From contig NC_073313.1 in the NCBI RefSeq assembly GCF_027595985.1, forward strand, positions 85,232,899 through 85,296,898: 64,000 nt of DNA, read 5' to 3'. How positions within the stretch are numbered: the stretch's first letter is position 1; every line of letters begins with the position of its first letter. Position numbers and translations under genes: made by a program. Source of the stretch: Sorex araneus. Taxonomy: Eukaryota; Chordata; Mammalia; Eulipotyphla; Soricidae. The notes under the pieces are model-generated. The model was given only the letters and a program-made list of their open reading frames with translations. It had not been told where the DNA came from and did no database searches. Of this stretch, positions 3,710 through 11,824 are shown in pieces.

Positions 3710-6700
3710 CTGGAAAATAGTAACAATGTTAACTCCTTGTGTTTTTAGATTTTACAATTTGCACAGTACCTAAAGGACTAAAGACCTAAATTTGAACTTT
3801 GAACACCGCATAAGTCAAGAAGATAGTCCCATTTGACAGGTTAGAAAAGCAAATTCTAACATTAGAAAATAAAGGTGCAAGTCCAGGCCCACTGTGTTAG
3901 CTAGGAGAGAAGTAGGTTAGAAAGCAGAAAGAGTGCTGACAGTGCTTAGAGCAAACGGACAATACCACTATCAAGGCAGGGAAGCGGCTGACCTCCTAAC
4001 AACCACCACCACCCTACTACTAACCTAACTAATTTTACTAAGAAAATGAGTAACAAAGGTGGAGCCAGAATCTTACAGAATGTCATGAAGGGGAGAAAGC
4101 AGCTGCCACTCTTCAATGACTCTGGAAAGGACTTGTAGTCCATGACTTGACCAGGCTGAGACTTGTTTTTAAGGATGATGGTATTTTCAGGAAACATAAC
4201 ATCTGTATCTTCTTTATAGAACTGGATTGATTTTGGATTCTGAACTTCTTTAGGATCAACATCATCAGGCACTGGGACTGATTCCATATTCATGATTTCT
4301 TCAAGATTGATGGCCAAGTATGGTTGAAGGTCTGGAATTGTGTTGAGAATGGAGACATCTTCAGATTCTGGAGTCACATTGTTACCTGCATCTTCCTCAG
4401 AAACATTAACTTGGTCTTTCTGAGGATCTACAACTTCACTGTGATTTTCAGCATCCTCAGGCTCTGAAACCATGTTGTGTACTGAATTTTCTTTATGATT
4501 AGGGCTTTCTTCAGAGCTGTGGACTTCACTGGCATCCGAGGTTTCTTCATCTGCTGAGGTGTCTTCATAATCTGAGACTTCTTCACTACTTGAGACCTCA
4601 CTGACCTCTGAGGAATCTTGCTGGTAATTAATATCATTAAAATCTAGAACAGCTTCAGGGTTTATCACAAGGAGAGCTGAAATCACTTCCGGGCTGGAGT
4701 CTTCTTCAGAGCTTGCAACTGCATTGACTACTGGCACTCCTTCGTGATTTGTATTTTCTGAAGCATCATTAGAGACTTCAGGAGTTGGGACCTCATCAAA
4801 ATTAGGATCTTCATCAGCATACAAAAGTCCATTAATTTCTGGATATTCTTCATGATTTGGGGTATCAAGACCACCAGCAGGAATACCTGGAATATTTTCA
4901 GATTCTGGACTATCATCGACCACTGGGGCTGCTTCATGGTCTGGAACTTCTTCAGCATTTGAGGCTTCATCATTCAAGATTTCATCATTTGGAACATTAT
5001 CACTTGGAATCTCGTCATTTAGGACCTCATCATTTGGAACATCATCAAGAGCTGGCACTTCTTCAAGATTGGGGTCCTCTTGAAAATTTAGATGTTCATC
5101 ATCTGAGGCATCTGCATGCTCCTCATCATTATCTGAACTTTCATTACCATTTGGGATGACATCAAGATAGGGAACTTCTGCAAGGTCAGGATTTTGATCA
5201 TTTACAAAAGCTGGCCCTTCCTCAAGATTTTGGTCTTGGTGCGCGTCAGGATTTGGGATTTCTTGCAATTCTGGGATTTCTTCAGGTTCTGGGTCAGGAA
5301 CCATATGAAAATATGGCACTTCTTCAAATCTTGGAGTTTCAATGAAATCTGGATTTTCAAGATCAGGCCCCAGAATATCTTCAAGAGGAGGAAGATCATC
5401 AAAGTTCAGAATTTCATCATCATCATCATCATCATCATCAACATCTTCTTCATCAAGCTCTGGTATGCCTTCAAGATGTGGAACTTGAATCTCAAGATCA
5501 TTTGATATCTCAAGATTTTGGAATTCCCCAAAGACTACTCCTAGATTGAGATATTCAAATTCTTGCTCTTCATTGACTGCGACATCTTGAAAAAATTCAT
5601 CTTCATCAAAGACCTGGCCTTCGGGAAGGGCCTGACCATCACCACAGGACTGACCATCACCAAGTGCCTGACCTCCGGCAGGAAACTGACCTTCATCCAA
5701 AGGAGTGCTTTGACCTAGAACAGCAGCCCGAATTTCAGCAGAATTTTCCACAGGGTCAGAAAGTAAAGAATCCTCTTCCATCTTAATCTGAGCACTCCTG
5801 ATTAAAAATAAATGAGAAAAGTAAGTTAATTTGTATACTTGTGTTAATTAATAGGAGGGTGGTCAGGCTATAGAAGCTCTCATAGGCTAAGAGTAAATAA
5901 ACCAAGAAAATACTCACTGAATTTTCCTCAGTTTCCTGCGTCTGATAAAATCAATGGCTTCAGGACTGGATTTCCACACACGTTTAGCAACCTGCCTCTG
6001 AATATGGGGAGGCACCTGCAGGAAAATTAATAATGTTAGCCTTTATCAAATATTTTAAATGTATATTCATCTCTCTCAATTACCAAGGACTATGACTCTC
6101 TAATAAGTGAGGGCCAGCTCGAGGGTGAGAAATTTTGTGACTACTTTGATCACCCTCAAGAATGCACACAATTCAACCCTGTCTTAAAAACTGAGATCTG
6201 TGAAACAAATGTGTCTGGACATCCCACCTACCTGGAACAGAACATCCCAGTTATCAATCATGGCACGGACCACATTGACAGAAGCAACATAGTGGTCAAT
6301 CCCCAGTTTTGTCTTCCTTGACTCTCTCTTGCCAAATCTTCCCTTCTTTAGAAGAGCAGATCCAAACACCAAGGCCAAATTAGTGGAAGTCATACGGTTG
6401 CCAAAAACCTAGAAAACATAAAGCAGAAATGAATTTAATTTGAGGCAACAATAGAAGTGGGCCAAATATAAATATGTCCCTTAAAACCCCCCATCCTTTT
6501 CCCAAAGATACTCACCAGTTGCCCATCCATGCCAATCACATCCTCACAATGCTCAGTGACACTATGGAGTGCCTTTAAAAGGCGCTCAAGGGTGTCACTG
6601 TGGCATGGAGGCATGAGATAAACTAGCAACTGGAGGGCAGAAAGCTGGTCTTGTGGCCTCAGAGCTGCAGAAACAAAAACAAAAACAAAAACTCTCTTTA

Positions 6701-9700
6701 ATGAGCTTGCCTTTGCAGCAGTCATATACCAAAAGAGATGCAGTTCTTTTTCAAAATGACTGGGAATTTTGAAAAAAGTGTACGGGCAGCTTGTATTTTC
6801 TCATATCACTGGAACTTAGGAAGTTCTTCTATCAAAAAGAAACAGATCCCCACCCTTTACAGAACCTGGGTTCTGTAGAGGATACCCAGAGTTTCAAGTA
6901 GCTGTATAGAGATTCCCACACAACAAATGTATAATGCTCAAAGGTAACAGATAGTATAATATTCAGAGAGAAAAGGAAGCAATCTGGTAAGGAGGGGGGT
7001 TCATTTCCCACTATTTATTCTCTCTTTCTTCTTGGGAGTCCCGTAGTTTTAGACTTCTGACCCTAACCCCATACATTGCATGAGTTTATCTCTGTTTTTC
7101 TTGCCATGTCTGACAAAGGGGAGAAGACTCACTGGCTGTCATGAGGAAGGACATGTGCAAATCATCTGGTATCAGAGAGTCTTTCATGTCGCGAAAAAAC
7201 TCCGTAAGGAGTGCTGCCACATCGTGCACATTCTGAGAGTCATCCAGCACTACATCCAGACCTCGATCAAATTCTTCACGGAGCTAGAAAAATAGAGAGA
7301 TAACATGTATTTTCTGCTCTCCTTACCACAGGGGTCCTCCTCCCCATTCTTTCAATATGTCTCAAGCTTCAGTGAAGTTATCTGGAAATATGCTGAGGCA
7401 GAATGGGTAAGAGTCTAGAAAGAAAATATTGCTCTTCCCACCAACCTTGACACCCTCCTCAGATCAACAGACCAATCTTCCCCTCCCCCTTCTTTTTCTT
7501 ACCCAAAGAAGAAAAGTGTAGTTAAAGTCTACTCACCTCCTGCACTCTCTCCTCAGAGTACTCTTCTGTGAAAATTCCCACTGCCCTTAATCCTGAAGTT
7601 GAAAAAAATAGGAGGGTGCTAAGCAAATCCAGCTTCCTTTCTCCTCACAAGTCCACCCTCCTCCCCCTCAACATCTTCATCCTAACTTCCAACTCCTGGA
7701 GGGTGGGGGGGAGAGGAGGAGGGAGGGAATGTTGCCTTCCCTACATACTTCCATTCCCATTCCCCATCCCTCTCCTCCCTTTTCCCCACTTCTGCTCTTC
7801 CTTTTGATTCCCCCCACCCTGATTTGCCTTTGAAGTGCTTCCCATCACTTTTTACCCCCTTACCATGTTTTTCAATGAAACTGCAGCAAACCTCCACAAT
7901 CTGGGGGATTTGTTTTGCAATAGGATTGAGACTCATCTTCCTCTTGGACCCCAGCAGGCGTTGGCCAATTGGAAAGGAATTCTTGGAAAGTTGCAGGGTC
8001 TGCAGCAGCAGAGCCCCATCTTCCAGCTCAGCCAGGCTATCCACAGATATAGCACCCTGTGAAGCAAACCAGACTATCTTACAATGGGAGAACAAGAGGT
8101 GCCACGTTGTCGCTTTTTAACAGGAGATTTTCCCTCCCTGACAAGCCCATTAAAATGCCCCACCATTACCCCAAACCTGTTCTTTCCTTCACTACCTCCC
8201 CTGGCCTCCAGACACAGGCCATGACTCTCTGGCCCCACTTCAAGAAAGACCCACCCACCTTAGAAATGTGGCGGACTCGAAGCAACAGTATTGCTGACCT
8301 GGGTTTCATCCCAGGCACTCCACATGGTCATACACACACCCCGCCCCCCAGCCTCCTAGAGTAATCCCTGAGAGCAGAGCCAGGAGCAACCTTGAGTACC
8401 TTGCAGTGTGCCTCCCCCCATAAAATGGAAGGTTTTACTCACTCGACGACCCCGGCGAGTGAACTCCTGGGGCAACGTGGCCCTGGCCCAACGACGACTG
8501 AAAAAGCGCCGAAGATTTCCAAACATTCTTTGCACCACGTTTCCCCGACGACGACGGCGGCCTGAAATCTGACGGTTCTCTTCTTCCACCTGCATGGCAG
8601 CGATTAGTTCCAGATGCTTGCGTCGGGTGAGCTCGTTCACCAGCACCTCTTTCAGCGAGACGCCAAACGTCTTGAGCGAAAGGTCTGGGGAGTCAAGGAC
8701 AGAAAGTATAAAAAATGGCAAAGCTCCACTGCACTGACAGCAGGAGGAACTGCAGGGCCTGTAACTCGCTAAGCCACCACTCTCAGTCAGCCCCTCCCGC
8801 TACAGAGAGGCTGTGTCCCTCCCCCAGGGCGCGATTCCAAAAGACCCTGCCAGGTTTTGGCAGGACTCAACTGCACTCAACTACCTAGAGAGATCCCGGG
8901 TCTTTAATTTCTATCAGGGGTGACCTCCTTTAAAGTTCATTTTTAAGTGAGAGCACCCACCCCAAAGTGATTCAGACAGATTTGATGGAACTGTCGCTAT
9001 GCTTGCCAGCAGCAAGTTCGACATTTCCTGAAATCATCCTTTAAGATGTTTTGGAGGGCAATGGACACCACCCAGTTTCGAGGAGTCAGGGATACCTTAT
9101 ACGAAGGGTGCATCATTCCCTTTCTTCACTAAAGAAAGCATAAGAACCCCTCACCTCTCTCTTGTCCTCTTAGAAGCTGAATCCACTTCTCCAAAGTGTT
9201 TGGACGGTCAACGGGCAACGCTTTGGAAAGAGAAAAAGAATACATGCATTCACCCACACAGGATTTGATAAGTGACTAAAGCATGACAGTACATAGATCT
9301 GCAGAGATGGGGGAGTGTAGAGGTAAACAACTCATTTCAGCCCAGGGAGAATGTTTGCTTTCTCCCAGCCTCAGTTTCCCCATTTGGAGAACGACCGATC
9401 CTCTCATCTCCCACCTATAACCAAACACGGAACCGAATCAGGCAACCTAAGATTCCTCGTGCGCATGGTGCCTCTTGTTATGCAGCAGTAATAGCTCAGC
9501 CCAAGACTTAAGACAAACATTTCCAGGGCTGTTTGGTACGCGAACTCTGCAACAGGCATGGGGAGGAGTTCTGCCTACTGTGTTGCTGTGAGTTGGGGGT
9601 CGCCAAGTTACTGCGTGCGCGCGCGCACTAGCGCTAGGTCTGCCGTCGGCTCCCCGCGCTGCGGCGGGAGAAGACGCGACACCGCAGTCCCTGCGCTCCG

Positions 9701-10694
9701 ACCCCCCACAGCCTCCGTCTTTCTCTTCGGCGTCCGCTGCGCCGACCTAGAACACCCCCCACCCTATCCATTTGCATTCATTGCCTCAGAGACGACCTTC
9801 CGCTTGCGCGACCCCTTCCTACTCCCCAGCTCTCCTTTCCAATTTGATCAGCGACCCAATTTGATCAGCGACGCACTCCGGAAACCTCTCCTGGACACAC
9901 TCCACCCAGCTTGAGAGCGGAGTCCCGCTGGCTTCCGTACGAACAGCCCAGGTGGGCACAGCACACCGCTCACCTCCCGCAGCCGCCCCAGGAGCCCACA
10001 CAGACCTCCCGCTCTCCACCGGGGATTTGGCGCGTGTCTCTCAAACCAGCTGGTTAGTTCCTCTGTTCCCGTCCTCTATCAGAGTGTCCCTCTGCTCCAT
10101 CTAAGTGGTTCTCTCGTACCTCAGTGAACGCATCTTCACCTGTCCTCTATCCACTTGTCTGTCCCCGACCATCTGCTTGTTTTCGTTCTGCCCCTCAAAC
10201 ACCCCCCTCCCCCAAATATTCAATTCAATGCAACTAACTAATCTTTTACCTCTTCCACAATTCAGTATAACCTTCAACTTACACTTGCTCAATTCCCCAG
10301 GCACCCGGAGTATCTGATCAAGTCCTAGGTTAGGCACTAGCCTCACCCACTCTTCTGGACCCCCAACTTTTCCCGTCCCGCCTCGCCTCGGGGGGTCCCC
10401 TCGCCCGAAAACGAGGACTCCACACCCGGGACACTCCTCACCTCTCTCAGGTCTGAATTCGGAGAGGAAACGTCTGGCCACGAGTTCTTGGTAAGCTGTC
10501 TCTTGCAGTTTCAGGCGCTCCAGTTCCGAGAGATTGTGTATTGATACCATCATCGCCCCGCCGTCTGGATTCTGTCCCGGGGCTCCTCCCAGGACATTTA
10601 CTAAAAACATGAAGGCAGAAAATAAGACCAAAAAGAGCATGAATGTGGTCCATAATACACCTTCTACCCTCCAAAAAGGAGAGCGATCACCCAT
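3552..10694 (-). CDS. ARHGAP36: ARHGAP36, Rho GTPase-activating protein 36 (proximal-start form, ten exons shown separately)
   Basis: Joining the ten exons 10442-10694, 9155-9220, 8443-8684, 7864-8056, 7537-7592, 7133-7283, 6516-6664, 6232-6408, 5918-6015, 5691-5797 and the terminal exon 3552-3709 (eleven segments counting the terminal one) gives 1650 nt, or 549 residues plus stop, against about 547 in human. Every junction is GT-AG and phases agree. Layout: N-terminal hydrophobic segment (about 19-37), basic Arg-rich stretch and RRGAI motif (186-190), RhoGAP-like domain (about 225-430), then a basic helix and an acidic tail. Thr260 sits where active RhoGAPs carry the arginine finger, so GAP activity is not expected. 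Known role of the family: it binds and inhibits the PKA catalytic subunit and so activates Gli transcription factors in Hedgehog signalling. Identification is by recognition of the protein across all exons. Confidence 0.95.
3710..3945 (-). other. ARHGAP36: 3' remainder of last ARHGAP36 intron
   Basis: Lies between the stop of the read-through frame and the terminal-exon acceptor. It has stops in the read-through frame, and no repeat or AATAAA on the gene strand. It looks like ordinary intron, unlike the adjacent 1.75 kb. Confidence 0.6.
3946..5690 (-). CDS. Acidic read-through extension of ARHGAP36 within the last intron (candidate retained-intron isoform)
   Basis: From the exon 10 donor the ARHGAP36 frame stays open for 581 codons plus a stop, which would make residues 498-1078 of a 1078-residue isoform. 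The product is dominated by Asp and Glu. It has many NPDLEEVP-like elements, a 5-residue tandem block (NDEVLNDEIPSDNVPNDEIL), an uninterrupted poly-Asp run coded by the GAT tract at 5413-5440, and a Ser/Glu-rich stretch with many CK2-type sites (SSEEVSDYEDTSADEETSD). It ends in a long hydrophobic segment. The other five frames carry stops at ordinary spacing. No human counterpart is known to me. It could be a genuine isoform, a separate product, or an in-frame repeat expansion that is never translated. Confidence 0.55.
3988..4098 (-). other. Hydrophobic tail segment of the read-through frame
   Basis: Encodes roughly residues 1028-1064 of the hypothetical long isoform, with PPLLLIFLVKLVRLVVGWWW at its core. 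It is followed by only about 14 residues, as in tail-anchored membrane proteins. Two basic residues inside the segment weaken it as a simple single-pass helix. Confidence 0.5.
4964..5053. repeat. 15-bp in-frame tandem repeat, about six units
   Basis: Successive 15-mers such as ATTTCATCATTTGGA and ACCTCATCATTTGGA differ from each other at several positions. Being five codons long, they add residues without shifting frame. On the minus strand they encode the NDE(I/V)(L/P) repeat. Confidence 0.85.
5413..5440. repeat. Trinucleotide (ATC/GAT) microsatellite coding poly-Asp
   Basis: About nine ATC units on the plus strand. In the read-through frame on the minus strand they give a run of Asp. A likely length-polymorphic site. 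Confidence 0.9.
5691..5797 (-). CDS. ARHGAP36: ARHGAP36 exon 10 (penultimate coding exon)
   Basis: The acceptor is TTAATCAG before GAGTGCTC. It encodes SAQIKMEEDSLLSDPVENSA and on to STPLDE. The donor is GATGAAG followed by GTCAGT, less close to consensus than the GTGAGT used by most other exons of this gene, so read-through into the intron is plausible. Phase 2 in, phase 1 out. Confidence 0.95.
5918..6015 (-). CDS. ARHGAP36: ARHGAP36 exon 9
   Basis: Encodes VPPHIQRQVAKRVWKSSPEA and the basic IDFIRRRKLRKI segment just after the RhoGAP-like domain. The acceptor is TCCTGCAG, the donor GTGAGT. Phase 0 in, phase 2 out. Confidence 0.95.
6232..6408 (-). CDS. ARHGAP36: ARHGAP36 exon 8, end of RhoGAP-like domain
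   Basis: 59 codons, phase 0 at both ends. It begins VFGNRMTSTNLALVFGSALL, containing the conserved N(x)MTSxNLAxVF helix typical of RhoGAP folds, and ends at NWDVLFQ. The donor is GTAGGT. Confidence 0.96.
6516..6664 (-). CDS. ARHGAP36: ARHGAP36 exon 7, RhoGAP-like domain
   Basis: Encodes LRPQDQLSALQLLVYLMPPC through MDGQL. The LxxLxxYLxPxHxxTLxxLLxxL pattern is the middle of a RhoGAP fold. The acceptor follows an A/T-rich stretch with a short polypyrimidine run (TTTCTGCAG). Phase 1 in, phase 0 out. Confidence 0.96.
7133..7283 (-). CDS. ARHGAP36: ARHGAP36 exon 6, RhoGAP-like domain
   Basis: Encodes LREEFDRGLDVVLDDSQNVH, then DVAALLTEFFRDMKDSLIPD and DLHMSFLMTA. This contains the DVxxLLKxFxRxLPxPLxP-like helix of RhoGAPs, with DMKDSLIP in place of the usual LPEPLIP. 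Phase 0 in, phase 1 out. Confidence 0.96.
7537..7592 (-). CDS. ARHGAP36: ARHGAP36 exon 5, arginine-finger loop (Thr instead)
   Basis: A 56-nt micro-exon encoding the end of GLRAVGIFTEEYSEERVQE. In catalytically active RhoGAPs the GIFR/GIYR loop supplies the catalytic Arg. Here it is GIFT (Thr260 in the 549-residue form), as in the known family member, so the domain probably works as a scaffold. The donor is CAGGAG then GTGAGT. Confidence 0.95.
7864..8056 (-). CDS. ARHGAP36: ARHGAP36 exon 4, start of RhoGAP-like domain
   Basis: Begins GAISVDSLAELEDGALLLQT and runs to CCSFIEKHG. Its first codons complete the RR|GAI pseudosubstrate-like motif started by exon 3. IPQIVEVCCSFIEKHG is the first helix of the RhoGAP fold. 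Phase 0 in, phase 1 out; donor GTAAGG. Confidence 0.96.
8285..8398 (+). mobile_element. SINE fragment in ARHGAP36 intron
   Basis: GACCTGGGTTTCATCCCAGGCACTCC, then GAGTAATCCCTGAGAGCAGAGCCAGGAGCAACC: middle and 3' body of the shrew SINE, antisense to the gene. It lies about 45 bp from the exon 3 donor. Confidence 0.7.
8443..8684 (-). CDS. ARHGAP36: ARHGAP36 exon 3, basic region with PKA-inhibitory motif
   Basis: Encodes DLSLKTFGVSLKEVLVNELT and continues through RRKHLELIAAMQVEEENR to an Arg-rich block (SGRRRRRGNVVQRMFGNLRR and FFSRR) and EFTRRGRR. In the known protein this region binds and inhibits the PKA catalytic subunit. The exon ends exactly at the two Arg of the pseudosubstrate. Donor GTGAGT; phase 1 in, phase 0 out. 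Confidence 0.95.
9155..9220 (-). CDS. ARHGAP36: ARHGAP36 exon 2
   Basis: A 66-nt exon, phase 1 at both ends, so skipping it would keep the frame. It encodes LPVDRPNTLEKWIQLLRGQE. The acceptor CTTTCCAAAG has a weak pyrimidine tract; donor GTGAGG. Confidence 0.93.
9590..10010. promoter_or_regulatory. CpG-rich block between ARHGAP36 exons 1 and 2
   Basis: Dense CpG including GTGCGCGCGCGCACTAGCGC near 9617 and many CGAC/GCGG motifs, within an otherwise AT-leaning locus. CpG is normally lost outside islands, so this may be a methylation-free island and an internal promoter. No start site can be proven here. Confidence 0.4.
10442..10694 (-). CDS. ARHGAP36: ARHGAP36 exon 1 (proximal start), hydrophobic N terminus
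   Basis: ATG at 10694 has A at -3 and G at +4, a strong start context. It encodes MGDRSPFWRVEGVLWTTFML, then FLVLFSAFMFLVNVLGG (a membrane or signal-anchor-like segment) and VSIHNLSELERLKLQETAYQ. It aligns without gaps to the known long form. A splice acceptor (CCCTGCAG) lies just upstream, giving an exon start at 10718, and a second acceptor lies inside the coding sequence at 10600/10601. The exon can therefore be internal and is used in two lengths. Confidence 0.93.
10601..10640 (-). promoter_or_regulatory. ARHGAP36: Internal alternative splice acceptor inside exon 1
   Basis: The minus strand reads a long T-rich tract ending CATGTTTTTAG, then TAAATGTCCTGGG. Joined to the distal exon's final G it gives GTA AAT GTC, restoring VNVLGGAPG in frame. 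The same tract codes the hydrophobic segment in the other isoform. Confidence 0.75.
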
Positions 10695-11322: not shown

Positions 11323-11398
11323 CAAGTTATACCCATTATGGACTAGTTATACCCATTATGACTAGTTATACTCATTATGACTAGTTATACCCATTATG
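11323..11398. repeat. 19-bp tandem repeat, three full units plus a degenerate one
   Basis: Unit ACTAGTTATACCCATTATG at 11342, 11361 (one change) and 11380, preceded by a partial unit. No CRISPR-like spacers: the units abut directly. Confidence 0.9.
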
Positions 11399-11824
11399 AA
11401 ATGGCCACTGTATTGAAGTGCAGTCAATCAAGTGATGTTTGTAGAGAGTTTTTAAGCAACAAATACAATGGCAACATATATTTTTAAAACTGAAAGAAAT
11501 GCACCCAAATATCAACCATATCTGCATTGCGTTTGACTTTTTGTCTACTACCAGAAATTTCACAACTTGATTGTATTATTTTTCAGGGAAATAACATCAT
11601 ATTGTACCAAAACAAGAATTATTCCTGGGCCATTTCCAGTAAGACTTCCCATGTAAAAATTGATGGTCAGTGTGAAAATTAACTTATTGTACTGACAAAC
11701 CTGTTTTATGTGTCCCTTCTTCCATGGCGCTTAATAAGTAATACAGCTGCCAGACCACACATAAATCCCCAATGGAAATCTCCCTGAACCTCACCTAGCA
11801 TCTTTTACTGCACATCCTGACACT

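Follow-up and report, generated by a model that had tools for sequence, protein, structure and literature searches.

The last intron of ARHGAP36 in Sorex araneus contains, directly after exon 10, a long stop-free acidic block which, judged from its sequence and from its homologues, is protein-coding and belongs to this gene. It was analysed within a DNA stretch of 64,000 nucleotides (contig NC_073313.1, positions 85,232,899 to 85,296,898), here called the window. In our view, exon 10 probably has an optional 3' extension formed by this block, which is joined to the last exon from an in-phase donor at position 4076 and likely masks the PKA-binding segment of the protein. A spliceosome acting at the donor at 5690 would produce the canonical protein, and skipping of this donor in favour of that at 4076 would place approximately 538 acidic disordered residues between the RhoGAP-like domain and the last exon. 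We infer that this species uses the extension. As an explanation of the block, an alternative donor appears more likely than a retained intron.

ARHGAP36 gene model

The minus strand of the window carries ARHGAP36, for which ten coding exons and the last exon were rebuilt by an exon search guided by the human protein (Table 1). All ten introns of the model are of the GT-AG type and the frame is kept throughout. The coding exons span 7.1 kb, and the canonical product, spliced from the donor at 5690 to the last exon, has 549 residues. In the first-pass annotation, the exon 10 donor had been described as weaker than the GTGAGT donors used elsewhere in the gene; its sequence, GTCAGT, is indeed not GTGAGT, but by overall score it ranks seventh of the ten donors of the gene and so is not the weakest. 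The RhoGAP-like part is 84-88% identical to that of eight mammalian ARHGAP36 proteins over 341-347 residues. A Pfam RhoGAP domain was found in the relative P0001, the query being the relative's protein; the arginine finger is described as missing in ARHGAP36 (PMC8128262, excerpt). The model also contains RRGRRGAISV, in which the arginine-rich PKA pseudosubstrate motif RRGAV of ARHGAP36 (PMC5059767, excerpt) is present with V replaced by I; the resulting RRGAI straddles the junction of exon 8443..8684 with exon 8056-7864. A DNA search of the species' own 2.4 Gb assembly gave a single match, which was the locus itself, and a related-locus search of genome contigs and viral contigs gave no relative, as expected for a mammalian sequence.

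Two observations concern the 5' part of the gene. The first coding exon (10442-10694) begins MGDRSPFWRVEGVLW.. and by eye little resembles the MGGCIPFLKAARTLCP.. start of other mammals; the residues after this divergent start do align to them. Upstream of this exon, at 11325-11399, a 19-bp unit is repeated in tandem 3.9 times with 94% matches.

Table 1 Features of ARHGAP36 in the window and the basis of their assignment
Feature	Position	Strand	Basis
Exon with arginine-rich segment	8443..8684	-	Gene model; motif as defined in PMC5059767 (excerpt)
Exon 10 (coding)	5691..5797	-	Gene model; donor aag/GTCAGT, phase 1
Last intron	5690-3710	-	Gene model
Acidic extension, putative optional 3' part of exon 10	4077..5690	-	Open frame, homologues, composition
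Candidate cassette-exon counterpart, 141 nt	5148..5288	-	In-frame test; acceptor cccag/AA, donor atg/GTAATG at 5147
Candidate alternative donor tct/GTAAGA	4071..4076	-	Same phase (1) as exon 10 donor
Tail of open frame, TAA at 3948-3946	3946..4076	-	Hydrophobic C-terminus if the intron is retained; TTAG-rich
Last coding exon, 51 whole residues	3552..3709	-	Gene model; acceptor ctattttccag

Open frame in the last intron

Beyond the exon 10 donor, the ARHGAP36 frame continues on the minus strand without a stop as far as the TAA codon given in Table 1, and the protein read through from exon 10 into the open frame has 1078 amino acids, as had been claimed at first pass. Over positions 5688-3949 (580 codons), the minus frames contain 0, 24 and 104 stops and the plus frames 24, 23 and 24. 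Markov sequences of orders 1 to 5, trained on the window's own DNA of that region, had on average 37-43 stops per frame, and any open frame on the minus strand was generated in none of the 2000 sequences of each order. The open frame is thus even less probable by chance than the e^-28 estimated in the first-pass annotation.

The composition of the region is low in complexity and partly repetitive, as would be expected of a non-coding artefact in which triplet-repeat DNA was stop-free by chance and the models of other species copied mispredictions; most of the homologous proteins are automatic predictions, possibly copied from each other. We find this explanation scarcely credible, since the frame is kept at approximately 56% amino-acid identity. 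When the window's block was evolved neutrally to 56% identity (200 runs, substitutions only, without indels), 8.9 stops arose on average and at least three in each run, so that stops appeared in all 200 runs. Moreover, a contig of transcript size (P0028) bears an acidic cassette from the block, and residue 590 of a mouse antigen requires this cassette (see below). The internal repeat pairs of the block are all in frame (21 of 21); their mismatches amount to 26, 31 and 38% at the three codon positions, a mild rise which is weak evidence.

After the split codon, the block has 537 residues, of which 150 are D or E and 10 are K or R, giving a net charge of -140; in eight other species the net charge of the extension ranges from -113 to -162. 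In an AlphaFold2 model of exon 10 with the open frame, the mean pLDDT was 44.6 and 510 of the 616 residues scored below 50, and the acidic block is therefore predicted to be disordered. Homologues, composition and AlphaFold2 together support the view that the block is a coding, acidic and presumably disordered part of ARHGAP36. The acidic character holds for 4077..5690; the last 43 codons of the frame (4077-3949), which had been counted in the same acidic domain, are hydrophobic. The presumed richness in CK2 sites proved to be an effect of composition (the block has 18 S/T-x-x-D/E sites, and shuffled sequences have 14.8 ± 3.0).

The islands PHLEGIPELDEE (0.92), KNKSQPGQVMDY (0.89), LNFDDLPPLEDI and LAEVPYLDVIPN are conserved within the block and may be docking motifs. 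They were scored in an alignment from which four rows had been removed (a duplicate window row, the second cattle model, the tamarin and the naked mole rat); two further high-scoring islands rest on few aligned rows. Pfam families and PDB sequences gave no match to the block at E values up to 1.

Homologues in placental mammals

Protein searches yielded 39 distinct proteins, 37 of them ARHGAP36 and two myosin-9-type proteins with a RhoGAP domain. The search results were clustered at 90% identity, so that some species are hidden, and counts among the 37 models exclude proteins of canonical length (below approximately 593 residues) and do not give the share of ARHGAP36 models without the block. 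Homologues of the extension, whole or partial, are widespread. It aligns over its full length in four models (Oryx, Kogia, cattle P0004 and Cervus), nearly so in Loxodonta and, minus one block, in Camelus; it is shortened or partial in dog, fox, cat, Ovis, Myotis, Marmota and Heterocephalus and occurs in pieces in a tamarin. In eight models the extension is 47-59% identical to that of the window, compared with 84-88% in the RhoGAP-like part, which means that it evolves 3-8 times faster (ratio of -ln identity). A search for frameshifts and stops in relatives had been proposed at first pass. At the level of protein models, the block is present in most of them, but not always intact: the model of the tamarin looks broken, omits stretches and has its end out of register, that of the elephant stops early and that of the cat is truncated. 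In a long model of Cricetulus griseus (P0029), a 23-residue acidic repeat within the block is greatly expanded in tandem, and the end is different.

No block-bearing protein from marsupials or other vertebrates was found within the length limits and the best 8000 candidates, a result which is weak evidence of absence because of these limits. If the models are right, the block would be older than the split of elephants from other placentals. The first-pass statement that no counterpart had been described thus needs to be divided: the predicted proteins of many placentals have the block, and the extension is already annotated by prediction there, but no description of a C-terminal acidic extension was found in the titles and abstract openings of the ARHGAP36 literature among the matches listed. 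A literature query combining ARHGAP36 with intron retention gave no match.

Splicing of the acidic block

The extension comprises 538 codons including the split first codon, and splicing from 4076 is predicted to give a protein of 1087 residues with the last exon unchanged. The site at 4076 was proposed from the window alone, before the comparison with homologues. Scored by donor frequencies, it reached 3.65, compared with 8.43 for the site at 5690, and ranked 15th of the 18 GT sites scoring at least 3 between exon 10 and the last exon. Its phase match is not special either, as 14 of these 18 sites have phase 1. Codon periodicity is high (19-55) over 5688-4249 and then low (background 95th percentile 9.4), with values of 7.1 and 6.0 immediately before and after 4076, respectively. 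It was dropped as a marker of the exon end, since both sides of 4076 are alike and 7 of 13 canonical coding windows also fall below 9.4. With a weak donor score and a periodicity that cannot place the exon end, the case for 4076 is that of the homologous models: an equivalent junction (..C/SSEEP) occurs in 8 of the 37 proteins (Oryx, Kogia, Ovis, Camelus, Myotis brandtii, Vulpes, one cattle model and Heterocephalus). The remaining 29 comprise 20 with a short cassette, one composite (dingo P0018), two using other donors (Cervus and Marmota) and six without the last exon, including the dog model and the cattle model that keep the intron tail. P0018 was classified as composite by inspection and left out of the 20, in which P0017 was counted. 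The block has 93 phase-1 AG dinucleotides in 537 codons, which may be why the models splice it so variously.

The 20 cassette models (rodents, bats and one further) carry just 56-84 acidic residues from the block, and internal splice sites would trim it to this size in rodents and bats. The mouse cassette has 58 residues, 21 of them D or E and none K or R, and it brings the mouse model P0027, which would otherwise have 544 residues, to a length of 602. Given the alternative N-terminus of related rodents, P0027 would have exactly 590 residues. The mouse ARHGAP36 antigen comprises residues 201-590 (PMC6658197, excerpt) and hence needs residue 590, so that the mouse protein of that study, as an experimentally used form, very probably contains the cassette. 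The 602-residue cassette form P0028, identical to P0027 except for two residues, is carried by a contig of 2922 nt. As this is shorter than the 7.1 kb span of the coding exons, the simplest explanation of the contig is that it represents a spliced transcript or was copied from one.

The cassette models raise the question whether just an exon of the mouse type (approximately 5288-5148) is functional in the window, the rest of the block being a relic in the process of loss. More than half of the homologues (20 of 37) would fit, and an in-frame counterpart of 141 nt, a candidate equivalent of the rodent and bat exon, is present (Table 1); the truncated or broken models of the tamarin, cat and elephant point the same way. 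We nevertheless judge it improbable, as the block beyond the cassette is open here and includes conserved islands such as the two whose values are given above. Furthermore, the acceptor of the rodent junction is absent from the window, which has CCT GAC instead of CCA GAC, so that splicing would need to rely on an adjacent AG, from which the exon would begin at 5288.

Tail of the open frame

The first-pass annotation had ascribed the open frame to a retained-intron isoform. In its present form, this reading assumes a transcript which spans the whole intron and a protein terminating at 3946, whose hydrophobic C-terminal helix could serve as a membrane anchor. The dog model and one cattle model do end in the tail, with the stop in the same place, and the tail is better conserved among these species than the acidic block (33/42 identical positions between window and dog, 30/42 between window and cattle, 35/42 between dog and cattle). 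AlphaFold2 predicted one confident helix there (residues 579-599, pLDDT near 88), and hydropathy reaches a maximum of 2.1-2.4. However, retention is found in these two of the 37 models only, compared with 8 for the 4076-type junction and 20 for the cassette, the cattle tail has an arginine inside the predicted helix, and a tail evolved neutrally at the observed identity stayed stop-free in 90 of 200 runs, so that its openness needs no selection. The isoform as originally stated was consequently not upheld, and we regard retention as unlikely.

The conservation of the tail could instead stem from a splicing element. The 131 nt after 4076 contain five TTAG and eight TAG motifs, counts equalled or exceeded in 0.1% of 983 window stretches. 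Motifs of the TTAG/TAG type bind splicing factors of the hnRNP A1/D type. In view of this cluster, the conservation may be regulatory; the tail may thus be a splicing regulator, or else the end of a membrane-anchored retained-intron form.

Possible action on PKA

In development and in tumours, ARHGAP36 acts as an inhibitor of PKA and an activator of Gli (PMC8128262, excerpt), and its arginine-rich pseudosubstrate docks into the acidic cleft of PKA (PMC5059767, excerpt). In the window, the arginine-rich PKA-binding segment has a net charge of +15 over 50 residues. Returning to the extension spliced from 4076, our best guess is that the block masks this segment electrostatically; intramolecular masking seems likeliest because a tail with a net charge of -140 and an arginine-rich segment share one protein. 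The strongly negative tail would fold back onto the segment and compete for it with both the membrane and PKA's acidic cleft, and splicing would tune the strength and the place of PKA inhibition and Gli activation by ARHGAP36. The C-terminal domain, called enigmatic, was reported to offset N-terminal autoinhibition and to promote cilium trafficking, and in the human protein to promote the activity of isoform 2 (PMC8128262, excerpt), so that an inserted block could act in either direction. The long, spliceable acidic domain that other placentals have at the same position offers a specific regulator of PKA binding and localisation that can be put to the test.

A bolder version, which we hold to be rather unlikely, is that ARHGAP36 of many placentals contains a splice-controlled built-in antagonist, a disordered domain of some 540 residues with a charge of -140, which mimics the acidic cleft of PKA and holds the arginine-rich pseudosubstrate shut. 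Human isoforms were described as proteins of 46-61 kDa differing only at the extreme N-terminus (PMC5059767, excerpt), and those isoforms would accordingly be without a block of 540 residues; studies of the human protein would then have missed such an antagonist. If it were true, splicing could give rise to species differences in cilium and Gli phenotypes.

Comparison with known ARHGAP36 isoforms

Human isoforms 1-5 are products of the same gene, and the block would fall within their C-terminal domain. The predicted long isoforms of Oryx dammah (X2), Kogia breviceps (X1), Loxodonta africana (X1), cattle, deer, sheep and others have a homologous acidic extension in the same place; they differ from the window by gains and losses of repeats, several have shortened starts or ends, and all are known as database predictions only. 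Mouse isoform X1 (602 aa) and rat isoform 3 (599 aa) likewise have an acidic cassette between exon 10 and the last exon, which is homologous to the block of the window including the LAEVPYLDVIPN stretch. The mouse and human proteins used in experiments apparently differ by an acidic exon from the block, which bears on the comparison of their data. The mouse cassette has 58 residues, whereas the extension in the window has approximately 538. The boundaries of the cassette are internal splice sites; in the window, one of these, the acceptor, is altered.
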